From contig NZ_JAMZMI010000003.1 in the NCBI RefSeq assembly GCF_024714475.1, positions 434,001 through 498,000 of the forward strand: DNA of 64,000 bases. The letters are read 5' to 3'. Below are positions 28,257-41,031 of this stretch, in pieces. This stretch comes from Marinoscillum sp. MHG1-6 (GTDB lineage Bacteria; Bacteroidota; Bacteroidia; Cytophagales; Cyclobacteriaceae). The translations under genes and the position numbers were made by a program. Every line of letters begins with the position of its first letter. Positions within the stretch are counted from its first letter, which is position 1. The notes beneath the pieces are model-generated. The model made no database searches. It had not been told where the DNA came from and saw only the letters and a list, made by a program, of their open reading frames with translations.

Positions 28257-28276
28257 AATCACCTTTTCGGGTGATT
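28257..28276. promoter_or_regulatory. Inverted repeat, putative Nit1C operator (copy A)
   Basis: Perfect 7-bp arms AATCACC and GGTGATT with a 6-nt spacer (TTTTCG), 33 nt upstream of the chosen nitH start. The same arms, spacer length and outer flank (CAAAATCACC...GGTGATTGA) recur at 30443-30462 before nitB. Two copies at the head of the two units of one pathway indicate a specific regulator site. Confidence 0.7.
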
Positions 28277-28309
28277 GATTGGCTAAGGCCTAAAGGAGAA
28301 TTTTACAAC

Positions 28310-29566
28310 ATGAAAGAACATTACAGTGTTATCATAGTCGGTGGAGGTCAAGCAGGTCTATCTATTAGTTATTGCCTCAAACAAGAAGGAATCGATCATA
28401 TCATATTTGAAAAAAATCGAATTGGTTATGCCTGGAGAGAAAAAAGATGGGACGCTTTTTGTTTAGTCACACCAAACTGGCAATGCAACCTTCCCGGCTT
28501 TTCGTATGAGCGGGAATACCATGGAAAGGATCCAAAAGGGTTTATGACAAAAGATGAAATTGTGCGCTTCATAGAAGCCTATGCAGCGCATTTCAACCCG
28601 CCAATCCATGAAGGTGTCACTGTTACCGAAGTAATAAAAAATGAGGAGTCATGCTATCAAGTAAGTACATCAGAGGGCACATTCACATGTGATCAGATTG
28701 TAATTGCAGCTGGCAATTTTCAATTTGCAAGCCTACCGGGAATTTCACGGAAATTTCCTCACGACATCCTACAAATTCATTCCTCCGATTATAAAAACCC
28801 TGAAGCTCTCCCTAAAGGTGATGTTATGGTCGTCGGTACCGGACAATCAGGAGCTCAAATTGCAGAGGATTTGCACTTAGCAGGTAAAAAAGTACACCTA
28901 TGTGTGGGAAACGCTCCTAGAACCGCCAGGAATTACCGAGGCAAGGATGTGGTAGAATGGCTTGACATGATGAAGCATTACGATATTCCTATTACGAAAC
29001 ACCCGGAAGGGCTTGCGGTAAGAAAAAAAACAAATCACTATGTAACTGGAAGAGACGGGGGGAAAGAAATAGACTTGAGAGAATTCGCTCTGGAAGGCAT
29101 GGTGCTTTATGGCAAACTGGAAGACGTCCAGGAAGAATCGTTGGTATTTGCACCGAATCTGAAAGAAAACCTCGATCGTGCCGACGAATCTGCAGAACGT
29201 ATCAAACAAAGAATAGATCAGTATATTGAGATAAACGAAATTGAAGCGCCCGTTGAACTTCCTTATGCAAAAGTATGGGAGCCCTCTGAGGAGATAACAT
29301 CTCTCGATCTATCAAAAACCGATATAAAGACAGTCATCTGGAGTATTGGATATGGCTTTGATTATAGCTGGGTAAAACTTCCCGTCTTTGACAAGTCCGG
29401 TTACCCCATTTATGACCGAGGAATTACCAGTGAAGAAGGCCTCTATTTTCTTGGGCTGGCTTGGATGTACACCTGGGGTTCAGGGCGGTTTTCTGGTATA
29501 GCAAAAGACGCCGAGTATCTATCCCAGATGATCAGAAGTAAAATAAAAGAAAAAATTCTTGGTTGA
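28310..29566 (+). CDS. nitH: Nit1C flavin-dependent oxidoreductase (MSMEG_0569 family)
   Basis: A 418-residue FAD/NAD(P)H enzyme of the flavin monooxygenase-like fold. FAD-binding GGGQAG (VIIVGGGQAGLSISYCL) at the N-terminus, a second nucleotide-binding VVGTGQSGAQIAEDL, and TVIWSIGYGFDYSW near the C-terminus. The frame opens at a GTG (28271), but that codon lies inside the operator-like repeat; the ATG at 28310 follows a good AAAGGAG and begins the FAD domain directly. It matches the oxidoreductase of the Nit1C cluster. Here it is transcribed apart from nitBCDEFG, with the LuxR regulator convergent to it. The substrate is not known. Confidence 0.88.
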   Translation: MKEHYSVIIVGGGQAGLSISYCLKQEGIDHIIFEKNRIGYAWREKRWDAFCLVTPNWQCNLPGFSYEREYHGKDPKGFMTKDEIVRFIEAYAAHFNPPIHEGVTVTEVIKNEESCYQVSTSEGTFTCDQIVIAAGNFQFASLPGISRKFPHDILQIHSSDYKNPEALPKGDVMVVGTGQSGAQIAEDLHLAGKKVHLCVGNAPRTARNYRGKDVVEWLDMMKHYDIPITKHPEGLAVRKKTNHYVTGRDGGKEIDLREFALEGMVLYGKLEDVQEESLVFAPNLKENLDRADESAERIKQRIDQYIEINEIEAPVELPYAKVWEPSEEITSLDLSKTDIKTVIWSIGYGFDYSWVKLPVFDKSGYPIYDRGITSEEGLYFLGLAWMYTWGSGRFSGIAKDAEYLSQMIRSKIKEKILG

Positions 29567-29575
29567 TAATTAGTC

Positions 29576-30340
29576 TTAGAGATAACCTTTATCTCTCGCA
29601 AACAGAATAAGGTCAATGGTTTTATTAACATTGGCCTTTTTCATTAGATTCTTTCGATGAGTGTTTACCGTATTAATGCTGATAAAAAGCTTATCTGCGA
29701 TTTCCACACTTGAAAGACTGGCCGCCAGTAGCTTCAACACATCCAGTTCCCTTTCACTAAATAATTCCTCATCCTCTGAGGATTGTTGCCTTAAGTAATA
29801 ATCAAAAGTTTCGTTCTTGGGGCCATAGATATGCCACTTCACACTATGGTGATCAACCAAATCACTAATGTCAGTACATAAGGAAATATATGCCTCGACT
29901 TCATTGCGATGGTTCTTAATAAACGGAGTGCTTTGCCTCAGGATAGAAATGTAATCACCATCAGATTTCCGCACCCGATAGTTAATGTTAAAAGATGAAT
30001 CAAACGGCACCAAATCCTTCGTATTTCCCATGACAAATGATAATAGAGCTTTTGATATCTTAAAATACATGCTTAGGTCGGATGGATGAATGATCCGAAC
30101 AAGAAAATCTGCGGTAAGACCTGACATGTCATAGCCAAGCGCATGATCAAAACCCTTATGGTAAAACCGTCCGGTCTTTATATGGTGAATATAAAGAAAC
30201 TGGTTTCTCCAAAGCTTTGAATTGTTGAGATGATCCGTGATTTGCTTCTCGTAGATTGTTTGATAATCTACATACTGATCACGCAGGCTTTTCAGAAAAT
30301 CCCGAAATTGATACACCGCCTGATCTCTTTCTTTCGCCAT
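29576..30340 (-). CDS. PAS-LuxR one-component transcriptional regulator
   Basis: A 254-residue regulator: an N-terminal helical stretch, a PAS domain (about 50-165; GRFYHKGFDHALGYD, HPSDLSMYFKIS, YRVRKSDGDYISI), and a C-terminal LuxR/GerE helix-turn-helix (about 190-254; SERELDVLKLLAASLSSVEIA, ISINTVNTHRKNLMKKANV). There is no receiver domain, so it probably senses a ligand or redox state through PAS. It sits between nitH and nitB, in the position of a local regulator, and converges on nitH with 9 nt between stops. It is the best candidate to bind the paired AATCACC-N6-GGTGATT sites. Confidence 0.88.
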   Translation of the reverse strand: MAKERDQAVYQFRDFLKSLRDQYVDYQTIYEKQITDHLNNSKLWRNQFLYIHHIKTGRFYHKGFDHALGYDMSGLTADFLVRIIHPSDLSMYFKISKALLSFVMGNTKDLVPFDSSFNINYRVRKSDGDYISILRQSTPFIKNHRNEVEAYISLCTDISDLVDHHSVKWHIYGPKNETFDYYLRQQSSEDEELFSERELDVLKLLAASLSSVEIADKLFISINTVNTHRKNLMKKANVNKTIDLILFARDKGYL

Positions 30341-30357
30341 CTTAATCAGATAAGAGC

Positions 30358-30381
30358 TTTATTGATGAAATTATCAATAAA
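30358..30381. promoter_or_regulatory. AT-rich 9-bp inverted repeat upstream of LuxR regulator
   Basis: Perfect arms TTTATTGAT (30358-30366) and ATCAATAAA (30373-30381) with a 6-nt spacer, 18 nt upstream of the regulator start. It could be an autoregulatory operator or a leader hairpin. The spacer length equals that of the two Nit1C sites but the sequence differs. Confidence 0.45.
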
Positions 30382-30442
30382 AGAATAAATTAAGTACAAA
30401 TAATTAAACCAAAAAACCAATTTATTAATTCTATCACAACAA

Positions 30443-30462
30443 AATCACCTGAAAAGGTGATT
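30443..30462. promoter_or_regulatory. Inverted repeat, putative Nit1C operator (copy B)
   Basis: AATCACC-N6-GGTGATT with spacer TGAAAA, in the divergent region between the LuxR regulator and nitB. Arms and spacing are identical to copy A at 28257-28276. A TTG (30461-30463) at its edge and TATTTTTA (30484-30491), 20 nt apart, resemble a Bacteroidota -33/-7 promoter, so a bound regulator would touch the -33 element. Confidence 0.7.
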
Positions 30463-30524
30463 GAACCGCAGCAAGCATACTTCTATTTTTATAAAAAAAT
30501 TCATTACTAAAACATTAAAGAAGT

Positions 30525-31007
30525 ATGCCAAAAGTTACGTACCCAATGCACAAGGACGGGGATTTTTTTGTGGATTACGAAGAGAAGGTTTTTGAGGATG
30601 TAAAAGCTGAGCCCGGTGAAAAAGCCCTCGTTACCTTTCATACTGTTGCATTTGAAGGCTCTATAGGTTTAGTGAACATATTGTCCGCTACACGTCTTCA
30701 AAGAAAAGGTTTTGAAACTTCCATCCTATTGTACGGACCAGGAGTTACGCTTGGTCTTCAGCGCGGTTTCCCAACCCTGGGAGATGAAGCTTTTCCAGGT
30801 CATCAGAATTTCGCTGCGCGTTTAACAAAATTCATGGATGAAGGAGGAAAAGTGTACGCATGTCGTTTTGCTTTACAAGCTCTATATGGACATGGAGAAG
30901 CCTCCCTACTTCCCGGTATTACACCTATCAATCCATTGGATGTTTTGGATATTGTGCTCATACACAGAAAGGAAAATGCCTTTATTCTTGATACCTGGAC
31001 ATTGTAA
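30525..31007 (+). CDS. nitB: Nit1C protein, MSMEG_0572/Sll0783 nitrogen-starvation family
   Basis: A 160-residue soluble protein of the MSMEG_0572/Sll0783 family. It has no membrane segment or signal peptide. Recognisable stretches include [36 protein letters not shown] and [15 protein letters not shown], giving an alpha/beta fold reminiscent of DsrE-like proteins (inference). In Synechocystis the relative Sll0783 is induced by nitrogen starvation and affects polyhydroxybutyrate accumulation. It is the first gene of the nitBCDEFG run, 63 nt after operator copy B. Biochemical activity unknown. Confidence 0.87.
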
Positions 31008-31021
31008 AGTGATCTTTTAGG

Positions 31022-32020
31022 ATGTCATCAAAAAGAATCATTAAAGCAGCTGCCGTACAGATAGCTCCTGTTTTGGACGACCGTGAAGCCACCACCCAAA
31101 AGGTGTGTGATGCGATAGCCGAAGCAGGGGCCAATGGCGCTCAAATCATCGTTTTCCCAGAGACAATTATCCCCAACTACCCGTACTTCTCCTTTGTGAA
31201 GGCTCCGGTAGCTTCGGGAAAAGATCACCTCAAATTGTATGATCAGGCTGTAACGGTACCTGGACCCGTTACCGAAAAAATCGGGCAATATGCGGCAGAA
31301 TATAACACCGTGGTGGTAATAGGAGTGAATGAAAGAGATCATGGATCTATTTACAATGGACAACTGATTTTTGATACGACCGGGGAGCTGGTTCTCAAAA
31401 GAAGAAAGATTACACCTACTTTTCATGAGCGCATGATTTGGGGCATGGGAGACGGCAGTGGTCTTAAAGCTGTTGATACTGAAATAGGCCGTATCGGAGC
31501 ATTGGCATGTTGGGAACATTACAACCCCCTGGCACGCTACGCATTAATGGCTGATCATGAAGAAATCCACTGTGCCCAGTTTCCGGGCTCCATGGTAGGG
31601 CCCATTTTCGCTGATCAAATAGAGGTAACTATTCGTCATCATGCGCTGGAGTCAGGATGTTTTGTAATTAACTCCACCGGATGGCTTTATGACGATCAAA
31701 TCAAAAGCATTACCGACGACCCTAAAATGCAAAAAGCATTGACATCAGGTTGCATGACCGCCATCATTTCGCCTGAGGGCAAGCATCTGGCTGAACCAAT
31801 AACTGAAGGGGAAGGCATCCTTTACGCAGACCTGGATATGCAGCTCATTGAAAAAAGAAAACGTATGATGGATTCGGTGGGTCATTATGCCAGACCGGAG
31901 CTACTTTCGGTTCAACTCAATACTGCCGCTCATAGGCCTGTACAGATTATTTCACCGGAAACTGAGGTTTCCAAAAAAGAAGAATTGAAACATGATCCAA
32001 TCGAAAACTCTCTCCTCTGA
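31022..32020 (+). CDS. nitC: Nitrilase, Nit1 (Nit6803-like) family
   Basis: A 332-residue carbon-nitrogen hydrolase. The catalytic triad is intact: E47 ([13 protein letters not shown]), K129 ([11 protein letters not shown]) and C163 ([11 protein letters not shown]). The CWEHYNP sequence and length indicate a true nitrilase (nitrile to acid and ammonia) rather than an amidase. It belongs to the clade found in the conserved Nit1C cluster, of which the Synechocystis enzyme Nit6803 is a member. It lies 14 nt after nitB and overlaps nitD by 29 nt. The physiological nitrile is unknown; Nit1C has been linked to growth on cyanide as nitrogen source. Confidence 0.94.
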
Positions 32021-33128
32021 ACGTGTTCAGGTCGAACTACAAACCTATGGCATGCGCATGCAGGATATTTACGGTTCTGCCAGTCGCAAAGGTGGAGCCG
32101 GTCCTACTGACCACAAAGCTGTGTTTATCGATGGAAACACGATTATGGTACCTGTACACAACTCCGTTTCCTCGGCTTCGCCTTATTGGGTTGACAGTCC
32201 AAATGAACTAGGGGTGGCCAACCTTTATAAAGGAGACGAAAAAATCACTACGATCAGTTTTCCCAAACAGCCCAATTTTTACAAACACATTACTTCAGAC
32301 GGGATTCCTATGTGGAAAATCGCTCAACTCCATAGTCATAACGTACTTGCCACCACGGTCTTACAAAACTGTGTACGCTACTATGACAAAGCCACTTCCT
32401 GTCAATTCTGTGCCATTGGTGAATCATTGAAGGCTGACAGGACCATAGCCTATAAGAAGCCGCATCATTTAGCTGAGGTAGCACGCATAGCGATAGAAAA
32501 AGACAAAATCGATCAGATGATCATCACTACCGGCACCCCATCCACCCCTGACCGGGGAGCCAAAATATTATTTGAAAGTGTCATGGCAATTAAAGAGGTA
32601 GCCAACATTAATATACAGGTTCAATGCGAGCCTCCTAATGATTTTGCATGGTTCCAAAAATTAAAAGATGCAGGTGCTGATGCCATAGGTATGCATCTGG
32701 AAGCAGTGGAAGAACATGTCAGGCAAATGATCATGCCTGGCAAGGCGGAGGTCAATGTCGCCTATTATCTGGAGGCTTTCAAAGCGGCAGTAAAGGTGTT
32801 TGGTAAAGGCAATGTAAGCACCTACATTTTGGCTGGGCTTGGAGATAGCCGGGAGGCTATTCTAGAAATGAGTCGAAAACTGATCAATATGGGTGTATAT
32901 CCTTTCGTTGTTCCCTTTGTACCGATCGGAGGAACTCCTTTAGCCAATGCTTCACCTCCCGATCAATCATTTATGGAAAGTTTGTTGACTCCAGTAGGGC
33001 GAATGCTGGTAGAGGCCGAAATGACCTCCGACACCCTGAAGGCAGGTTGTGCCAAATGTGGCGCATGCTCTACCTTGAAGGCCGTGGAACAAAAGTTTAA
33101 AAAAACTGATAAGGCCTATGCTGCTTGA
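31992..33128 (+). CDS. nitD: Nit1C radical SAM enzyme (MSMEG_0568 family)
   Basis: A 378-residue radical SAM protein. Its presumed cluster ligands are C127, C137 and C140 ([19 protein letters not shown]), a CX9CX2C spacing rather than CX3CX2C. Barrel features follow ([49 protein letters not shown]). The C-terminus has a second motif, C353-X2-C356-X2-C359, which may hold an auxiliary Fe-S cluster. It overlaps nitC by 29 nt and nitE by 11 nt, showing tight translational coupling. The reaction is not established. Confidence 0.92.
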
Positions 33129-33702
33129 GCCATATAAAAAACACCCAAGCCGCTATTTAAAATTTGATTTTGCGGAACAACTATGGCAAAGAAGGTCCTA
33201 TTGGGAGTTGAGAAAAAATGTATTTTGTGAAGAACAAAGACTTTTTGTAGGTACCGATAAAGATCTTTTTGATACAACTGCCATACCCATCATAGCCTCT
33301 TGCTATTGTATGGGAATGGAAGACCGGGTGGTTGGTGCAGTTCGGATCTACCAACGAGAGCCCGGGATTTGGTTTGGAGGTCGACTGGCGGTGGACAAAG
33401 AGTTCAGGTCCTTAAGCCGGTTTCAAACATTGAACCTTTTCCCAGACAATAAAACCATTCATCCTTTCACGCTTGCCGTGGGAGGTGCTTTGATTTACAA
33501 GGCAGTAAGTACCGCCACAGCATTGGGCTGTCGCCAATTTCTAGCTCATGTACAACCACAAAATGTCCGGTTTTTTGAAAGAATGCATTGGAAAACCATT
33601 GGTACTATCAATAAAAATGGCATTCAACATGCCGTGATGGAGGCATCCTTGAATTATTTTCAGGAAGTACATTCTACACCAAGAGATTTAAAATCGGCTT
33701 AA
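33118..33702 (+). CDS. nitE: Nit1C N-acyltransferase (MSMEG_0567/Sll0786 family)
   Basis: A 194-residue GNAT-like acyltransferase. The N-terminal part (YWELRKNVFCEEQRLF) and VVGAVRIYQREPG resemble acyltransferases related to LuxI and GNAT; GGRLAVDKEFRSLSRFQTL would form the acyl-CoA pocket, and FLAHVQPQNVRFFERMHWK is a typical GNAT C-terminus. The start ATG at 33118 lies inside nitD (11 nt overlap). It probably acylates an amine intermediate made by the upstream enzymes; the substrate is unknown. Confidence 0.87.
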   Translation: MLLEPYKKHPSRYLKFDFAEQLWQRRSYWELRKNVFCEEQRLFVGTDKDLFDTTAIPIIASCYCMGMEDRVVGAVRIYQREPGIWFGGRLAVDKEFRSLSRFQTLNLFPDNKTIHPFTLAVGGALIYKAVSTATALGCRQFLAHVQPQNVRFFERMHWKTIGTINKNGIQHAVMEASLNYFQEVHSTPRDLKSA

Positions 33703-33711
33703 AGCGAAAAA

Positions 33712-34668
33712 ATGACAAGTGAAGAAACCCTTTTACGTGAATTGTACGCAAACAGCAATGTCCATGACAAGGTGGACATAGGCCAAACCTATGCCTCTCT
33801 TGGTGACGAGGTCTCTCATTTTAATTTTCTTACTGGATCTTCAGAACAAATTCAGTTGGGTGATGATTGTGCCGCTATTAAAGACGGCCAAGGTGGTTAT
33901 TTGCTATTCGCCTCAGAAGGAATTATCCACCAGTTCACCCGTTCGCATCCATGGTTTGCCGGCTATTCTGCTATCATGGTGAATATCAGCGATATATGCT
34001 CCATGGGCGGTCTTCCAATAGCTGTGACAGATGTATTATGGACCCAAAGCAGAGAATCTGCTAAAGATTTATGGGAAGGTATGGTATGTGCCTCTGAGGC
34101 CTATGGAGTACCCATCGTAGGAGGGCATACCTGCTATCGCTCGGAAAACACCCAACTCGCCGTTTCTATTATCGGACAAGCAAAGAACCTCCTCACAAGT
34201 TTTGGGGCACAGGGAGGCGAAAATATTATGATGGCCGTGGATTTGGATGGTGATTATTTTGAAGATTACCCATTTTGGAATGCATCCACCACAAGCAGCC
34301 CGGAAAAACTACAGGAGATCATACAACTGCCCCGGCTGATCGCCAATGAGGGGCTCTCAAAATGTGCCAAGGACATCAGCATGGGGGGAGTCATTGGAAC
34401 ACTCGACATGTTATGCCGAACATCCAAAGTAGGAGCGACTATAGATATTCAATCCGTACCTAAACCTGAAAATTCCGATTTAAAAAAATGGTTATTAAGC
34501 TTCCCCAGTTACGGATATATCTTTACCTGTTCACCCGAGAATTCAAGTGCGATCAGTAGCATTTTTTCCAGGCACAAAATCACCTGCAAGACCATCGGGA
34601 AAATCACTGACTCTTCTGGAATTACAACAGAGTCGATTGATCAGTCAAAACTGAAAACCTACGCATAA
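33712..34668 (+). CDS. nitF: Nit1C AIR synthase-like protein (Sll0787 family)
   Basis: A 318-residue PurM/AIR-synthase-fold protein. The N-terminal ATP-binding half shows GDDCAAIKDGQGGYLLFASEG and VNISDICSMGGLPIAVTDVLW; a glycine-rich GGHTCYRSENTQLAVS follows; the C-terminal half has DISMGGVIGTLDML. PurM-like enzymes activate amide or formyl groups with ATP to close rings or make thio or seleno intermediates. It is distinct from purine-pathway PurM, being shorter and divergent. It lies 9 nt after nitE and 1 nt before nitG. Confidence 0.88.
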   Translation: MTSEETLLRELYANSNVHDKVDIGQTYASLGDEVSHFNFLTGSSEQIQLGDDCAAIKDGQGGYLLFASEGIIHQFTRSHPWFAGYSAIMVNISDICSMGGLPIAVTDVLWTQSRESAKDLWEGMVCASEAYGVPIVGGHTCYRSENTQLAVSIIGQAKNLLTSFGAQGGENIMMAVDLDGDYFEDYPFWNASTTSSPEKLQEIIQLPRLIANEGLSKCAKDISMGGVIGTLDMLCRTSKVGATIDIQSVPKPENSDLKKWLLSFPSYGYIFTCSPENSSAISSIFSRHKITCKTIGKITDSSGITTESIDQSKLKTYA

Positions 34669-34669
34669 A

Positions 34670-34948
34670 ATGCCTGTTGTATACATGCAAATACAGTGGC
34701 CAGATGGCCGAAGGAACGACATCTACTCTCCTTCTTCCATTATCAGGGAATTTTTTAGAAGTAGCGAAAAGATGCCTGTAAAAGAGTTTGATAACAAAAT
34801 CTCAAAAGCGTTAGAAGCTGCCAGTTCGCGAGTTACCGAAGTTTACGGATATGCATGTAGTTCTGCAGAAGCAGAACTATTATCAGTAAAAAATCTACTT
34901 AAAGCCTACCGTCCAGATGACACGGTGGAAATCATTGGTTTTAGTTAA
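34670..34948 (+). CDS. nitG: Nit1C small protein (MSMEG_0570 family)
   Basis: A 92-residue conserved protein of the MSMEG_0570 nitrogen-starvation family. The start MPVVYMQIQWPDGRRNDIYSPSS and the motif TEVYGYACSSAEAE are characteristic. It has no signal peptide or membrane helix. Its start is 1 nt after the nitF stop and its stop lies 6 nt before the MTHFR-like gene, so it is in the operon. Possible roles (subunit or chaperone for a neighbouring enzyme) are guesses. Confidence 0.85.
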   Translation: MPVVYMQIQWPDGRRNDIYSPSSIIREFFRSSEKMPVKEFDNKISKALEAASSRVTEVYGYACSSAEAELLSVKNLLKAYRPDDTVEIIGFS

Positions 34949-34954
34949 TCGAAA

Positions 34955-35884
34955 ATGAGACAAAACACACATACGGGAAAACTACCTTTTGGACAGTTAT
35001 TGGAAGATAACCGATTTATCCTTTCGGCTGAGTTAACCCCTCCCAGGCATTATGATCTTACTGATTTCATGAACAAAGCAGAGATCGTCAACGAGTATGT
35101 GGATATTGTCCAAATCAACGACCATCTCTTATCCAAGGCCAGACTCACCAACCTCATTGCGGGTCAGCAGTGCAAGCTCGCTGGAATGGAGCCTGTTCTT
35201 CAGTTTGCTTTAAGGCATAAAAACAGAATTGCCATTCAGGGAGATTTGCTGGGTCTTGCTGCTATGGGAATGGAAAACCTTATCATCCTTGGGGGCTACC
35301 CTTGTAGTATTGGCTCAGATGCCGAGGCGGTGGATGTACATGACCTGGATAGTCTAGAAGCGGTCCGTAAAATCTCCAGACTAACCAAATCAGGTGAACT
35401 GTTTAACGGAGAAGTCATTTCTCCACCTCCTCGTTTCAACATCGGTGTGGTCGAATTCCCATGTTCAGCCTCTCACATGGAACAAAACCTTGACCGGTTA
35501 GAGGAAAAAATTGATGCTGGAGCTAGCTATGTTCAGGTACAGGCTGTTTTTGAAGTTGAACCCTTACACTCATGGATGAGCAAAGTAAGAGAGAGGGGAT
35601 TGCACCACAAAGCCCGCTTTCTGGGTGCCGTATTCCCCTTTAACGGACTTGAAAGGCTTAATGCACTCACAGAAATCCCTGGGTTAGAAATCCCTCATGT
35701 GGTTCGGCGTAGACTTCAAATGAACGATACAGAAAGCGAAAGCCTTCAAATCACGCTTGAACTCATCCGCGAGATCTCTAGAATTGAAGGCATTTCTGGC
35801 CTACACATCCGGTCCATAGGCGCAGAAGCCTGGGTGCCCCGCATTATCGAGGCCAGTGGACTAGGCGGTGTTCACTTATACTGA
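34955..35884 (+). CDS. MTHFR-like protein appended to the Nit1C operon
   Basis: A 309-residue methylenetetrahydrofolate-reductase-fold (FAD/TIM barrel) protein. It keeps the glutamate of SAELTPP (E26) and the glutamine of VQVQAVFE (Q196). The folate-contacting LRGD of MTHFR is replaced by LGGYP (112-116), so the Asp is a Tyr (Y115). The canonical metF, with LRGD, lies next door on the opposite strand (35916-36872), so this is unlikely to be the housekeeping enzyme. It is 6 nt after nitG and ends the operon. It may act on a different C1 carrier or intermediate. Confidence 0.8.
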   Translation: MRQNTHTGKLPFGQLLEDNRFILSAELTPPRHYDLTDFMNKAEIVNEYVDIVQINDHLLSKARLTNLIAGQQCKLAGMEPVLQFALRHKNRIAIQGDLLGLAAMGMENLIILGGYPCSIGSDAEAVDVHDLDSLEAVRKISRLTKSGELFNGEVISPPPRFNIGVVEFPCSASHMEQNLDRLEEKIDAGASYVQVQAVFEVEPLHSWMSKVRERGLHHKARFLGAVFPFNGLERLNALTEIPGLEIPHVVRRRLQMNDTESESLQITLELIREISRIEGISGLHIRSIGAEAWVPRIIEASGLGGVHLY

Positions 35885-35915: not shown

Positions 35916-36872
35916 CTAAAACAGCTCCTTAGCAATTCTATAGACAGAATCCGACTTTCCCATGCTATAAAAATGAAGCACAGGCACACCAGCATCCATT
36001 AGCTCTTTTGCTTGCTTGATACCCCACTCAACACCCACTTCCTTAACCTGCGAATTGTCCTTACAATTTTCAACTGCGTCATGAAGCTCATCCGGGATAT
36101 CGATGTGAAAAATACTAGGAATAATATTCATGTGATTCTTAACCGTAATTGGCTTTAAGCCCGGAATAATTGGCACAGTAATTCCAGCCGCACGACATTT
36201 ATCTACAAACTCAAAGTATTTCTGATTATCGAAGAAAAGCTGTGTTACAATATATTCGGCGCCATTCTCCACCTTTTGCTTTAGGAAATTAAGATCCGAT
36301 TTAAGATTGGGCGCTTCAAAATGTTTCTCGGGATAACCAGCAACACCAATACAGAAATTAGTAGGTACTGCATTTTGCAGTTCATCATCCAGGTAATGTC
36401 CCTGATTCATTTCAGAAACCTGATTAACTAATTCGATAGCAAAAGCGTTGCCTTCAGGTTCCGGTTTAAATGATTTCTCAGTACTAATTGCATCTCCGCG
36501 TAACGCTAGCACATTATCTATCCCCAAAAAATGGAGGTCTATGAGTGCGTTCTCTGTTTCTTCTTTTGAAAAACCACCGCAGATAATATGAGGTACCGGA
36601 TCTACATCATACCGGTTTTTGATTGCAGCACATATCCCAACAGTTCCGGGTCGCTTGCGAATGGTTTTCTTTTCTAGTAGTCCATTGCCTCTATCCTTAT
36701 AGACAAACTCTTCTCGATGATAAGTAACATCGATAAATGGAGGCTTAAACTCCATTAAAGGATCTATGTGTGCAAAAAGGCCATCAATACTATCCCCTTT
36801 CTTTGGTGGGATGATCTCAAGCGAAAAAAGGGTATTTCCTTTTGCCGCCTCAATATGCTCTACTACTTTCAT
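35916..36872 (-). CDS. metF: 5,10-Methylenetetrahydrofolate reductase
   Basis: A 318-residue FAD enzyme reducing methylene-THF to methyl-THF for methionine synthase. Diagnostic residues are present: E in SLEIIPPKKG, ALRGDAI with the catalytic Asp, the FCIGVAGYPEKH segment, and IVTQLFFD. Length is typical of bacterial MetF. It lies directly behind metH (no gap) in the SAM-riboswitch-led operon and converges on the MTHFR-like gene of the Nit1C cluster with 31 nt between stops. Confidence 0.97.
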   Translation of the reverse strand: MKVVEHIEAAKGNTLFSLEIIPPKKGDSIDGLFAHIDPLMEFKPPFIDVTYHREEFVYKDRGNGLLEKKTIRKRPGTVGICAAIKNRYDVDPVPHIICGGFSKEETENALIDLHFLGIDNVLALRGDAISTEKSFKPEPEGNAFAIELVNQVSEMNQGHYLDDELQNAVPTNFCIGVAGYPEKHFEAPNLKSDLNFLKQKVENGAEYIVTQLFFDNQKYFEFVDKCRAAGITVPIIPGLKPITVKNHMNIIPSIFHIDIPDELHDAVENCKDNSQVKEVGVEWGIKQAKELMDAGVPVLHFYSMGKSDSVYRIAKELF

Positions 36873-39554
36873 TTATTTATAACCTAAATTAGGTGCTAAC
36901 CACTGTTCTACTACATTTTTATCCATACCCTTTCTTTGGGTATAGTCATCAATTTGATCCTCATAAACTTTTCCCAGCCCAAAGTATTTTGACTCAGGGT
37001 GAGAAAAATAAAAACCACTGACTGAAGCCGCAGGGAACATTGCATAACTCTCTGTCAACTCAATTCCTGTATTATTTTGAGCATCAAGCATCCTGAAAAG
37101 AATCTCCTTTTCAGTATGATCCGGACAGGCCGGATATCCCGGTGCCGGTCGGATTCCCTGATACCTTTCCTTTATCAACTCTTCATTCTCAAGCGCCTCT
37201 CCCGATGCATAACCCCACAGTTCCCTTCTCACTTTCTCATGCATCATTTCGGCAAGGGCTTCTGCCAGACGATCGGCCACGGCTTTGATCATAATTGAAT
37301 TATAGTCATCGTGGTCTGTCTCAAACTTATCCGCAAGTTCCTTGGTCCCAAACCCCGCTGAAACAGCAAATCCTCCTATGTAATCCTTCAAACCTGACGC
37401 CTCTGGTGCAATGAAATCAGCAAGTGAAATATTGGGTATATCCTTTCCCTTTTTACCCTGTTGACGCAAAAAATGAAGCGTATCTAGTAGTTCCCCTCTG
37501 GAATCATCTCTGAAAATCTTCACATCTTCTCCATCGGCGATAGCAGGAAAAATACCTACCACCGCTTTTGCCGTAAGTGAAGATTTAGCGATCACATCAT
37601 CCAACATCTCGTTAGCCTCATCATAAAGCTTCTTCGCCTCTTTACCCACTGTAGGGTTTTCGAAAATGGCAGGATATTTACCCTTTAGCATCCAGGTACT
37701 AAAAAATGGCGTCCAGTCTATATATGGTCGAATATCAGCCAATGGAATTGAATCAAAAGTCTTTACGCCTAGGAAATTTGGTTTTGGAGGTTGGTAACCT
37801 TCCCACGTTATTTTGGTTCTATTAGCTTTTGCCTGAGCAAAGGTTACATGTGCTTTTTCATCCTGTCGATTTTCATGCCCCACCTTTAACTCAGCGTATT
37901 CCTGTTTTACCTGCTCAATAAGTTCGTGCTTTGATTCACTCATCAATTTAGTAGCCACACCTACACTCTTGGAGGCATCCAACACATGGATTACCGAACC
38001 ACTATATTTTGGCGCAATTTTTACTGCTGTATGAATCCGTGAAGTTGTAGCACCACCAATCAAAAGAGGCAGGTCCATTTTCCGACGCTCCATTTCTTCT
38101 GCCACATGAACCATTTCATCCAGGGAAGGGGTAATCAGCCCACTCAACCCAATGATGTCTACGTCCTCCTTAACTGCCTCATCCAATATTTTCTCGGCGG
38201 GCACCATTACGCCCATGTCTACAATGTCATAATTATTGCAGCCGAGTACGACACCTACTATATTCTTCCCAATGTCATGCACATCTCCCTTCACAGTGGC
38301 CATAAGGATTTTACCCTTGCTCTGCTTGGTATCCCCTGATCGTTTCTTTTCTTCTTCCAAATATGGAATCAGGTAAGCCACGGATTTTTTCATTACCCGT
38401 GCACTCTTCACCACCTGGGGCAAGAACATTTTGCCGGCTCCAAAAAGGTCACCCACCACATTCATACCATCCATCAGTGGACCTTCAATTACATGAAGTG
38501 GCTTATCATATTGCTGGCGTGCCTCCTCGGTATCTTCTTCAATGAAATCCACAACGCCCTTCACAAGGGCATGCTTTAATCGCTCTTCCACTGAAGCCTC
38601 TCTCCAGCTATTATCGACTACTTTGACCTTACCGTCTCCCTTAACTTTTTCAGCAAAAGCCAGCATACGCTCTGTGGCATCATCTCGACGGTTAAGAAGT
38701 ACATCCTCTACATGCTCAAGAAGATCTTTCGGTATTTCATCGTATACCTCGATCATCCCGGCATTCACAATCCCCATATCCATACCATGTTTGATACCGT
38801 GATATAAGAAAGCTGAATGCATCGCCTCCCGTACTACATTATTACCTCTAAATGAGAAAGAGACATTACTCACTCCCCCACTAACCTTCGCACCAGGTAG
38901 GTTTTCTTTAATCCATTTGGTAGCATTAAAGAAATCAACGGCATAGTTGTTATGCTCATCAATACCGGTAGCCACCGGGAAAATATTCGGGTCAAAAATG
39001 ATATCCTGACGAGGAAATTTCACCACATCGACCAACAGATCATAGCTCCGCTTACAGATATCAATTCTACGCTGGTAAGTATCTGCCTGACCTTTCTCAT
39101 CAAAAGCCATTACGACAGTTGCGGCACCATATTGTTTCAGCTTTCTGGCTTGTTCGAGGAATTTTTCCTCTCCTTCTTTAAGAGAAATGGAGTTAACCAC
39201 ACCCTTACCCTGCACACATTGAAGTCCGGCTTCTATGATTTCCCATTTTGATGAGTCGATCATCACGGGAATCCTGGCTATCTCAGGCTCTGAAGCTATC
39301 AAATTAAGGAATTTGACCATTGCAGCCTTACCGTCAAGCATCCCCTCATCCATATTCACATCCAGGATCTGTGCACCCCCGCGCACCTGGTCCAATGCTA
39401 CTTCCAGGGCCTCCTCATATTTTTCTTCACGGATGAGCCTTGCAAAACGGGCAGACCCCGTCACATTGGTTCGCTCACCAATGTTGATGAAGTTTGTTTC
39501 GGCTGTAACTACCAGCGGTTCGAGTCCCGAAAGCTTTAAAGGAGGTATATTCAT
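36873..39554 (-). CDS. metH: Cobalamin-dependent methionine synthase, C-terminal protein
   Basis: An 893-residue protein holding the pterin-binding, cobalamin-binding and activation domains of MetH. Pterin domain about 1-280 ([20 protein letters not shown]); B12 cap and Rossmann domains about 310-560 with the His ligand motif DVHDIG ([13 protein letters not shown]); activation domain about 590-893 ([31 protein letters not shown]). The homocysteine-binding domain is absent and is encoded separately at 40027-41031. Together the two transfer a methyl group from methyl-THF to homocysteine. It is followed at once by metF. Confidence 0.97.
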
Positions 39555-39599: not shown

Positions 39600-40037
39600 T
39601 TACATCAATACCTGCCAATTGTCATCAGCACCTCCATTTACCCAATCTCTGTATTTCTCCTGTCCACCGCGAGCAGACCAATCAGAGTCAATGGTGAGCT
39701 TAGAACTAATTCCACCCCGTGGATTACAGTTCATGACCATTCTCAACCTATCAGGTTCATAAACTTTCATCATATGATCATAAAAGATATTGATCAATCT
39801 TTCATATGAAACAACGATATCCCTCAATTGGAAAACATACTGTTTAAGCGACTTCAATTCAATAATCTTATCCTGAGGATAAAACGTCAGATAAACGTTC
39901 GCGAAATCAGGCTGCTCTTTTACACCAAGGAAAGTGAATTCCGGAATCTTAATTTTAATCTCATAAGCCTCACTGGTAGGATTAGGTAAGGCCTTTAGAA
40001 TAGAGCTATCTATTGTATCGTATTTCTTAATCAACAT
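39600..40037 (-). CDS. QueF-like T-fold protein lacking the catalytic cysteine
   Basis: A 145-residue homologue of the short-form 7-cyano-7-deazaguanine (preQ0) reductase QueF. The family pattern is visible: [13 protein letters not shown] (with D44), the ExKSLK motif (ELKSLK, 60-65), E79, and PRGGIS (106-111). In QueF the active-site stretch is LCPxTGQPDFA; here it reads [10 protein letters not shown], so the nucleophilic Cys is Gly38 and the following Pro is Val39. It should not form the thioimide intermediate and is unlikely to be a standard preQ0 reductase. It lies between the two metH genes and overlaps the first by 11 nt. Confidence 0.8.
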
Positions 40038-41031
40038 AAGCTTCTTTGATTCTGGGTTGAAACTGATTGGCTAACCTGGCTATTTCATGGATATGATCTG
40101 GAGTCGTTCCACAACAGCCACCCACAATGTTCAGCCATCCCTGTTCCATAAATTCCTTGATCTGCTCTCCCATTTCTTCCGGAGATTGATCGTATTCCCC
40201 AAACTCATTTGGCAAACCGGCATTTGGGTGTGCGCTGACCATAAAATCACATCTTTCACTTAATACCTGCAAATAAGGCCTTAGTTCGCTGGCTCCCAAT
40301 GCGCAGTTTAAACCAACGCTAAGAAGATCCATATGCGAAATAGAAATCAAAAAGGCCTCTGTAGTTTGTCCCGAAAGTGTTCTTCCGGATGCATCGGTGA
40401 TGGTTCCGGAAACCATAACCGGGACATTTACATTTCTTTCGGTGTTAAGGTCATCAATAGCAACCAAAGCTGCTTTGGCATTGAGTGTATCAAAAACTGT
40501 CTCCACTAGAAAAGCATCAACCCCGCCATCTAATAGCGCTTTTGCTTGTTCATAATATGCCGTCTTCAAATCTTCAAATGTCACCGCCCTATATCCCGGG
40601 TCGTTAACATCCGGTGAGATCGAAGCAGTTCGGTTGGTAGGACCGATAGAGCCTGCCACAAACCTTGGCTTATCAGGATTATCAGCTGTAAACTTATCAG
40701 CTACCTCTCGAGCAATTCGTGCTGACTCATAATTGAGCTGATAAACATAAGATTCAAGGCCATAATCTGCCTGGGCAATGGTAGTACTGCTGAAAGTATT
40801 CGTTTCTGCAATATCCGCTCCCGCCTCAAAGTAGGCGGCATGGATTTCCGAAAGGACGTCAGGTCTCGTCAGAGCCAAAAGGTCATTATTTCCCTTCAGT
40901 GGCTTTGGGTGATCCTTCAGCGCTTCATTTCTGAAATCTTCCTCCTCCAGTTTGTACCGCTGAATCATAGTTCCCATGGCTCCATCAAGTACAAGAATTC
41001 TCTGCTTAGCAATTTCTTTCAGCTTGCTCAT
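40027..41031 (-). CDS. metH: Methionine synthase, homocysteine-binding protein
   Basis: A 334-residue homocysteine S-methyltransferase domain, the N-terminal part of MetH as a separate protein. Visible are [10 protein letters not shown] at the start, the metal-ligand GLNCALGA and [11 protein letters not shown] (zinc cysteines), and [19 protein letters not shown]. It should bind homocysteine and Zn2+ and work with the large MetH part encoded at 36873-39554. It is the first gene after the SAM-I riboswitch and overlaps the QueF-like gene by 11 nt. Confidence 0.95.

Follow-up and report, generated by a model that had tools for sequence, protein, structure and literature searches.

The closest described relatives of the protein considered here are the QueF enzymes, in which Glu97 anchors preQ0, the QueF motif binds NADPH and Cys55 forms a thioimide, as set out in PMC5372742; the same paper treats sequences without any defining residue as non-QueF, and describes the T-fold superfamily as binding purines and pterins. 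QueF-L (archaeosine synthase), a single T-fold domain, forms a covalent thioimide according to the title of PDB entry 5jyx, and the T-fold is also found in GTP cyclohydrolase I and further enzymes of pterin metabolism. Hydride transfer from NAD(P)H to methylene-tetrahydrofolate (methylene-THF) is the work of the methylene-THF reductases (MTHFRs), comprising the FAD enzyme MetF and the flavin-independent Mfr, which are (beta-alpha)8 barrels; the flavin-independent reaction, on a barrel fold, proceeds via a 5-iminium cation according to PMC11094777. Among open-licence papers, we found none that ties a Cys-less QueF to methionine or folate genes, and the term QueF is absent from the portion of PMC1971073 that was available.

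We analysed a stretch of 64,000 nucleotides from Marinoscillum sp. MHG1-6 (hereafter, the window), for which an earlier note, made from the letters alone, had proposed a QueF homologue with Gly in place of the catalytic Cys, located within a methionine operon. The features discussed below are collected in Table 1.

Table 1. Location of the Gly gene, its site residues and neighbouring genes (window positions unless a viral locus is named)
Feature	Position	Strand	Basis or remark
Gly-type QueF-like T-fold protein, 145 aa	39600..40037	(-)	Pfam, NCBIfam, alignment, model
Codon of Gly38, which replaces the catalytic Cys55 of QueF; Val39 follows	39924..39926	(-)	one residue fewer before QPDF
Asp44 (QueF Asp62)	39906..39908	(-)	alignment
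E60-L-K-S-L-K65, QueF/NADPH motif core (B. subtilis Glu78)	39843..39860	(-)	alignment; motif from PMC5372742
Tyr78-Glu79 (QueF His96-Glu97)	39801..39806	(-)	alignment
metH N-terminal part (homocysteine domain), upstream, 11-nt overlap with Gly gene	40027..41031	(-)	Pfam/NCBIfam
metH C-terminal part (pterin, B12 and activation domains), 45 nt downstream of Gly gene	36873..39554	(-)	Pfam/NCBIfam
metF, MTHFR over NCBIfam cut-off, end of same gene run	35916..36872	(-)	profiles, alignment
DUF2452 gene, viral locus L131	5435-5836		
DUF2452 gene, viral locus L167	4441-4890		

The window protein compared with QueF and other T-fold enzymes

The plus-strand frame of the Gly gene is interrupted by stops. 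The protein encoded on the minus strand matches Pfam QueF (E=4.8e-17), and reaches 87.2 bits against TIGR03139, the NCBI 'preQ(1) synthase' family, for which the cut-off is 86.9 bits. Nine other Gly members fall on both sides of this value (four above, five below), while one Cys-type control scored 173.9 bits. The subfamily therefore straddles the cut-off of the NCBI name, and some of its members are probably misnamed.

When aligned to QueF of Bacillus subtilis (B. subtilis), Cys55-Pro-Lys-Thr-Gly-Gln-Pro-Asp62 faces Gly38-Val-Lys-Glu-Gln-Pro-Asp44 of the window protein, which has one residue fewer; the replacement of the catalytic Cys-Pro by Gly38-Val39, as read in the earlier note, is thereby confirmed. 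ELKSLK (from E60), E79 and PRGGIS are all kept, and the window's ELKSLKQY agrees with the motif E(S/L)K(S/A)hK(L/Y)(Y/F/W) at seven of eight positions, the exception being the seventh (Gln). Preceding E79 is a Tyr, where QueF has a His (His96, numbered from the alignment).

The AlphaFold model of the window protein is a T-fold (pLDDT 81.7, pTM 0.76) with a low-confidence C-terminal tail (residues 134-138 and 142-145). Its nearest solved structure is the C55A variant of B. subtilis QueF (4fgc), with a Z of 16.2 and an rmsd of 2.7 over 128 residues; entries of B. subtilis QueF (Z 14.9-16.2) are followed by GTP cyclohydrolase I, QueF-Like and FolB-type enzymes. Being a monomer, the model affords no view of the pocket, because the QueF pocket sits between subunits (PMC5372742). 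Taken with the Pfam match and the alignment, the model upholds the claim that the fold and motifs of QueF are recognisable in this protein.

We conclude that the window gene encodes a T-fold protein that is closest to unimodular QueF (TIGR03139, B. subtilis), with which it shares the unimodular T-fold, the equivalents of Asp62, Glu78 and Glu97 (Asp44, Glu60 and Glu79), the core of the NADPH motif and PRGGIS. Unlike unimodular QueF, Gly-type proteins have Cys55 changed to Gly together with the one-residue deletion, His96 changed to Tyr, a new conserved C-terminal DxDW..GG segment and, in the window protein, Cys99 changed to Leu; their recurring neighbours are methionine and folate genes, whereas that of Cys-type QueF is queC. 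With the catalytic Cys55 absent, the aligned Gly-type sequence falls outside the published definition of QueF, and no full-length QueC, as a mark of the preQ0 pathway, was found in the genome. The likeness to QueF-L extends to the single T-fold domain (comparison with the model gives a Z of 13.3), but identity is about 13% and the covalent thioimide of QueF-L is impossible with Gly. Comparable Z values were obtained for FolE (up to 13.5), with a lower one for a FolB-type enzyme (8.9), but the window protein has no match at E<=1 to the Pfam families of GTP cyclohydrolase I and the T-fold pterin enzymes. It also lacks a match to Pfam MTHFR (PF02219) at E<=1. MetF and Mfr offer a possible analogy, and of reaction only.

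The Gly-type subfamily and the queuosine genes

All 123 related loci that we read (80 bacterial and 43 viral) have Gly at the Cys site, followed by Val in 117 and by Cys in three viral loci. The Glu of the QueF motif is likewise present in 123/123, with Arg as the third motif residue in two of them, and the Tyr-Glu pair in 122/123, the remaining row having an unread residue. In an alignment of 56 diverse rows (the window, two phage rows and 53 of the 123 loci retained after identity thinning), Gly38, Asp44, Glu60 and Glu79 are invariant, as are Asp117, Asp119, Trp120, Gly124, Gly125 and Trp132. dN/dS was 0.02-0.11 in three pairs, with dS saturated in two further pairs, and purifying selection thus acts on the Gly subfamily.

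The subfamily is widespread. In named genomes, 193 relatives were confirmed by a scan, and the best 80 of these, ranked by likeness to the window's family and all with Gly, come from Bacteroidota, Syntrophorhabdus-like deltaproteobacteria, Gammaproteobacteria (Pleionea, Aliikangiella, Kangiellaceae) and Nitrospirota; among the named relatives, a protein of a Cyclobacteriaceae MAG is closest to that of the window (86%). The gene is also carried by 43 viral contigs, although some of these IMG/VR contigs may be cellular or proviral. Members reached through MetE or AhcY searches have Gly too. When a three-member model was run against 395 genomes of the window's class, the matches, one per genome in all 50 matching genomes, were two-humped: 19 genomes had E<=1.1e-75 and 31 lay between 1.1e-17 and 2.2e-4, and the 11 loci read from the weak hump all proved to be ordinary, Cys-containing QueF. 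In a quick tree of 146 columns, built after removal of six duplicates and of one row containing an unread residue, the Gly group stands apart from Cys-type QueF with a support of 95-98, and a divergent Cys-type row (L002) lies beside it, with very long branches. On the evidence of alignment and tree, this is a conserved subfamily with an ancestry common to unimodular QueF. The earlier note had suggested a search for orthologues with the same Cys-to-Gly change, and these were found in several phyla and in viral contigs; a Cys at this site, which the note would have taken as the sign of a local mutation or error, occurred in none of the subfamily members read.

The note had also advised looking for a separate catalytic queF. 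None was found in the window's genome, where the Gly gene is the sole QueF-type gene. Nor did a profile search of this genome find a full-length QueC; there were two partial matches, which we read as other enzymes. They cover 57-61 of 210 positions and lie in much longer frames, one of 411 aa with 28.5 bits, which exceeds the Pfam cut-off of 22, and one of 630 aa with 21.5 bits, which does not. TGT is present. With E. coli queries, no QueC, QueD or QueE was detected in the 43 viral loci at 1e-5, or in the 80 cellular loci at 1e-8. DpdL, a protein of phage DNA modification, was also considered, but literature searches yielded nothing about it.

Methionine and folate genes around the Gly gene

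In the window, the two flanking ORFs, which had been taken for two metH genes, are by their domain matches the two halves of a single split metH; the reported overlap of 11 nt with the upstream part stands. The metF that follows keeps the catalytic residues E28, D120 and Q183 of E. coli MetF. Further along (window 28271-35884) is a Nit1C-like cluster, with MSMEG_0568 radical SAM, MSMEG_0567 GNAT, sll0787 AIR synthase-like and MSMEG_0570 genes, in addition to nitrilase-like and FAD-oxidoreductase-like ORFs identified by eye. It ends in an extra MTHFR-like gene (34955-35884), convergent to metF, with a Pfam MTHFR match of 2.4e-26 that is below the NCBIfam cut-offs.

Within 800 bp of the Gly gene, the best 80 of the 193 relatives have metH on the same strand in 34 cases and divergent in four (all Pleionea-type Gammaproteobacteria), thyX in 10 and neither gene in 32, counts that favour metH neighbours because the loci were ranked by likeness to the window's family; one of the 32 (L115) has metE 282 bp away. 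A broader set of 21 Gly-type Bacteroidia genomes, with a stretch of ~1.5 kb read, gave metH in four, and neither metH nor thyX within about 1.5 kb in the other 17, while in the draw from the window's class metH adjoins the Gly gene in 3/19 genomes, the window's own included. The metH link is thus real but not universal, and the supposition that orthologues always neighbour metH fails (38/80 of the closest loci and 4/21 broader Bacteroidia). Among the loci listed for Cytophagales and Crocinitomicaceae, the Gly gene lies between the halves of a split metH. In relatives of the window's organism that lack the Gly gene, the split halves abut in 18 of 20 pairs (gap -56 to 105). At two loci (L188, 2561-2938; L191, 2430-2786), the slot between the halves holds an ORF of 118-125 aa that by eye resembles an S23/IVP four-helix protein.

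In the Syntrophorhabdus-like class, thyX is directly upstream of the Gly gene; the two are neighbours at 10/10 loci of this class, and at 12/12 in a later, overlapping draw; its identity was checked on one member (Pfam 6.3e-73). When 21 clades were drawn by hand from the quick tree, a methionine synthase lay within 500 bp in seven (MetH in five, MetE in two), and no other clustered gene family was found near the Gly gene in more than two of the 21. The 12 Cys-type control loci have QueC nearby (~1.5 kb) in eight cases and metH or thyX in none. Apart from the window, metF adjoins the Gly gene at 2/80 loci (L052 and L061). One clade has six Flavobacteriales loci (L090, L091, L092, L096, L101 and L103), and at each of them a gene that looks by eye like riboflavin synthase converges on the Gly gene.

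Among the viral contigs, L150 (273 kb) carries the order metK-Gly-metH-ahcY, and L167 has metK, DUF2452, the Gly gene and metE, preceded by two genes of the nucleosidase and phosphoribosyltransferase families. The arrangement Gly-metE occurs in three of six viral MetE loci (L167 and two more contigs), and the Gly gene was not found in the fetched stretch of the other three. Five of the first 43 viral loci have metH, metK or ahcY within 5 kb. Searching from phage AhcY, we found the Gly gene at 16 of 77 AhcY loci, several of which have identical or near-identical proteins and three of which (L266, L267, L273) were already among the 43; at all 16 it is upstream of ahcY on the same strand, either directly or with one gene between (ferredoxin, metK or metH). 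It was not found in the stretch around ahcY at the remaining 61. SAM-cycle parts (metK, metH or metE, and ahcY), apparently in one gene run, were seen on L150, L166, L302-L308 and L326-L330. DUF2452 (PF10504) is within 500 bp of the Gly gene in L167 and, in a single viral clade, at 8/12 loci, with Pfam run on three.

Viral MetF was not found with the window sequence as query; an alignment used as query gave two, and the sequence fetched around these contained no Gly gene. In the two large viral contigs, no MetF was found over about 173 kb and 140 kb.

The methionine-synthase tie proposed in the earlier note therefore survives in part: the link recurs, but a helper specific to MetH is too narrow, since MetE, ThyX and phage AhcY/MetK are partners as well.

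The distribution of other folate enzymes was also compared with that of the Gly gene. FolA occurs in 17/19 Gly-type genomes of the Bacteroidia draw, which is not a complementary distribution, and in 34 of 44 carriers chosen across phyla from the 80, the 10 without it being exactly the ThyX-linked ones; in that class FolA is missing whether or not the Gly gene is present (0/46), a class trait. Replacement of FolA is thus not supported. Nor is that of FolB, which is found in 21/21 Gly-type Bacteroidia and is missing in 9/9 Gly-type and 7/7 other genomes tested of the ThyX-linked class; most of the carriers tested outside this class have both FolA and FolB. A general link to ThyX was rejected, ThyX being present in 0/21 Gly-type Bacteroidia and in 3/35 viral records tested (of the 43), as was replacement of MTHFR within the window, where the metF over the NCBIfam cut-off looks intact. 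The class of G493 (46 genomes), with no FolA match in any genome and no FolB in 16/16 tested, probably makes reduced folate by other enzymes.

A possible folate reductase and the alternatives

We know of no activity for any Gly-type member, including preQ0 reduction, proof of which the earlier note would have taken as a refutation. Judged from sequence, QueF chemistry is no longer possible for the Gly subfamily: with the Cys absent, the thioimide route would be closed, but the protein could still deliver a hydride and anchor a ring. The kept core of the NADPH motif, together with the Asp, suggests a catalyst rather than a pterin binder only. The protein probably serves one-carbon metabolism in some other way that has yet to be described, and a new role at the methionine/folate interface is likely.

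Reduced folates are the metabolites common to MetH, MetE and ThyX. MetE needs no B12, and its occurrence as a partner argues against a B12 role. From the shared reduced folates, the QueF residues and the chemistry of Mfr, we infer, tentatively and with a chance that falls a little short of even, that the Gly-type protein may be an NADPH-dependent reductase of a reduced folate which feeds methionine synthesis. The pterin ring of the folate would be bound through Glu79 in the old deazaguanine pocket, NADPH would pass a hydride to a C=N bond, and the product would enter methionine synthesis and the SAM cycle. The Cys is needed in QueF to turn the nitrile into a thioimide, a step that a folate imine or iminium would not require, and Gly, together with the deletion, would make room for a larger ligand. 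If the protein is such a reductase, a T-fold pocket that once reduced nitriles has, in losing its nucleophile, been turned to one-carbon chemistry, and a place in the phage SAM-cycle gene runs is filled. Several observations weigh against this reading: the intact-looking metF in the window's gene run and the metF at two of the 80 loci; the loci with neither metH nor thyX close by (32/80, and 17/21 in the broader Bacteroidia set); the small share of viral loci (5/43) with metH, metK or ahcY within 5 kb; the 61 of 77 AhcY loci at which no Gly gene was seen; and FolA and FolB in most carriers outside the ThyX-linked class. Neighbours such as AhcY and MetK, moreover, are explained equally well by the SAM cycle and by folate.

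A narrower version, which by analogy we consider possible if rather doubtful, is a QueF-derived, flavin-free methylene-THF reductase that would have spread between bacteria and those phages in which SAM-cycle parts are found. Position 7 of the purine or deazapurine would correspond to N5 of the pterin, and the hydride that goes to the exocyclic carbon on C7 of preQ0 would go instead to the methylene carbon on N5 of methylene-THF. If true, this would be another way to make methyl-THF. Against it are the intact-looking metF in the window's gene run and the metF genes beside L052 and L061.

Among the alternatives to the proposed folate reductase in methionine synthesis, a dihydrofolate or dihydropterin reductase, or an enzyme that repairs oxidised folates (e.g., 5-methyl-dihydrofolate) and so protects the cofactor pool of methionine synthase and ThyX instead of catalysing a main-pathway step, draws upon the same evidence of fold and neighbours, and we regard it as unlikely. 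The Gly gene is beside metF in the window, it co-occurs with FolA in Bacteroidia and across phyla as an accessory enzyme would, and the class in which it is paired with ThyX lacks FolA. However, FolA is equally missing in members of that class without the Gly gene, so that the protein is no general FolA substitute, and compact phage operons containing metK, metE or metH, and ahcY are not where one would readily look for a repair enzyme.

The short overlap with metH and the position between its split halves could instead point to a non-catalytic folate-binding partner, i.e., a carrier or regulator, of methionine synthase and ThyX, as could the loss of the catalytic Cys in a superfamily that binds purines and pterins (PMC5372742). 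This we hold to be improbable, given that the core of the NADPH motif and the Asp62 and Glu97 equivalents are kept, that a split MetH needs no such partner when most split pairs abut without a Gly gene, and that the partners (MetH, MetE, ThyX and AhcY) are unrelated enzymes.

A similarly low probability attaches to an enzyme whose substrate would be adenosine, SAH or some other SAM-cycle purine, and which might pull the AhcY equilibrium; the phage gene runs with AhcY and MetK and the binding of purines by the T-fold (PMC5372742) could be cited for it. Such an enzyme would leave the linkage to ThyX unexplained. PreQ0, moreover, has a 2-amino-4-oxo ring and is not an adenine. The Glu97 equivalent that is kept here is the residue that anchors preQ0 in QueF (PMC5372742), which also speaks against such an enzyme.

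It is very unlikely that the protein has remained a QueF working on 7-deazaguanines, by an altered chemistry, in the modification of tRNA or DNA. The sequence family and its NCBIfam name, the TGT in the genome and the Cys right after the Gly in three viral members are in line with such a role, but no member read has a Cys at the site, a full-length QueC was not found in the window's own genome, and the viral and cellular loci gave no QueC, QueD or QueE match at the thresholds stated above. Finally, a local mutation, an assembly error or a decaying pseudogene can be dismissed, as Gly is found in every one of the loci read, with low dN/dS and intact frames across phyla.
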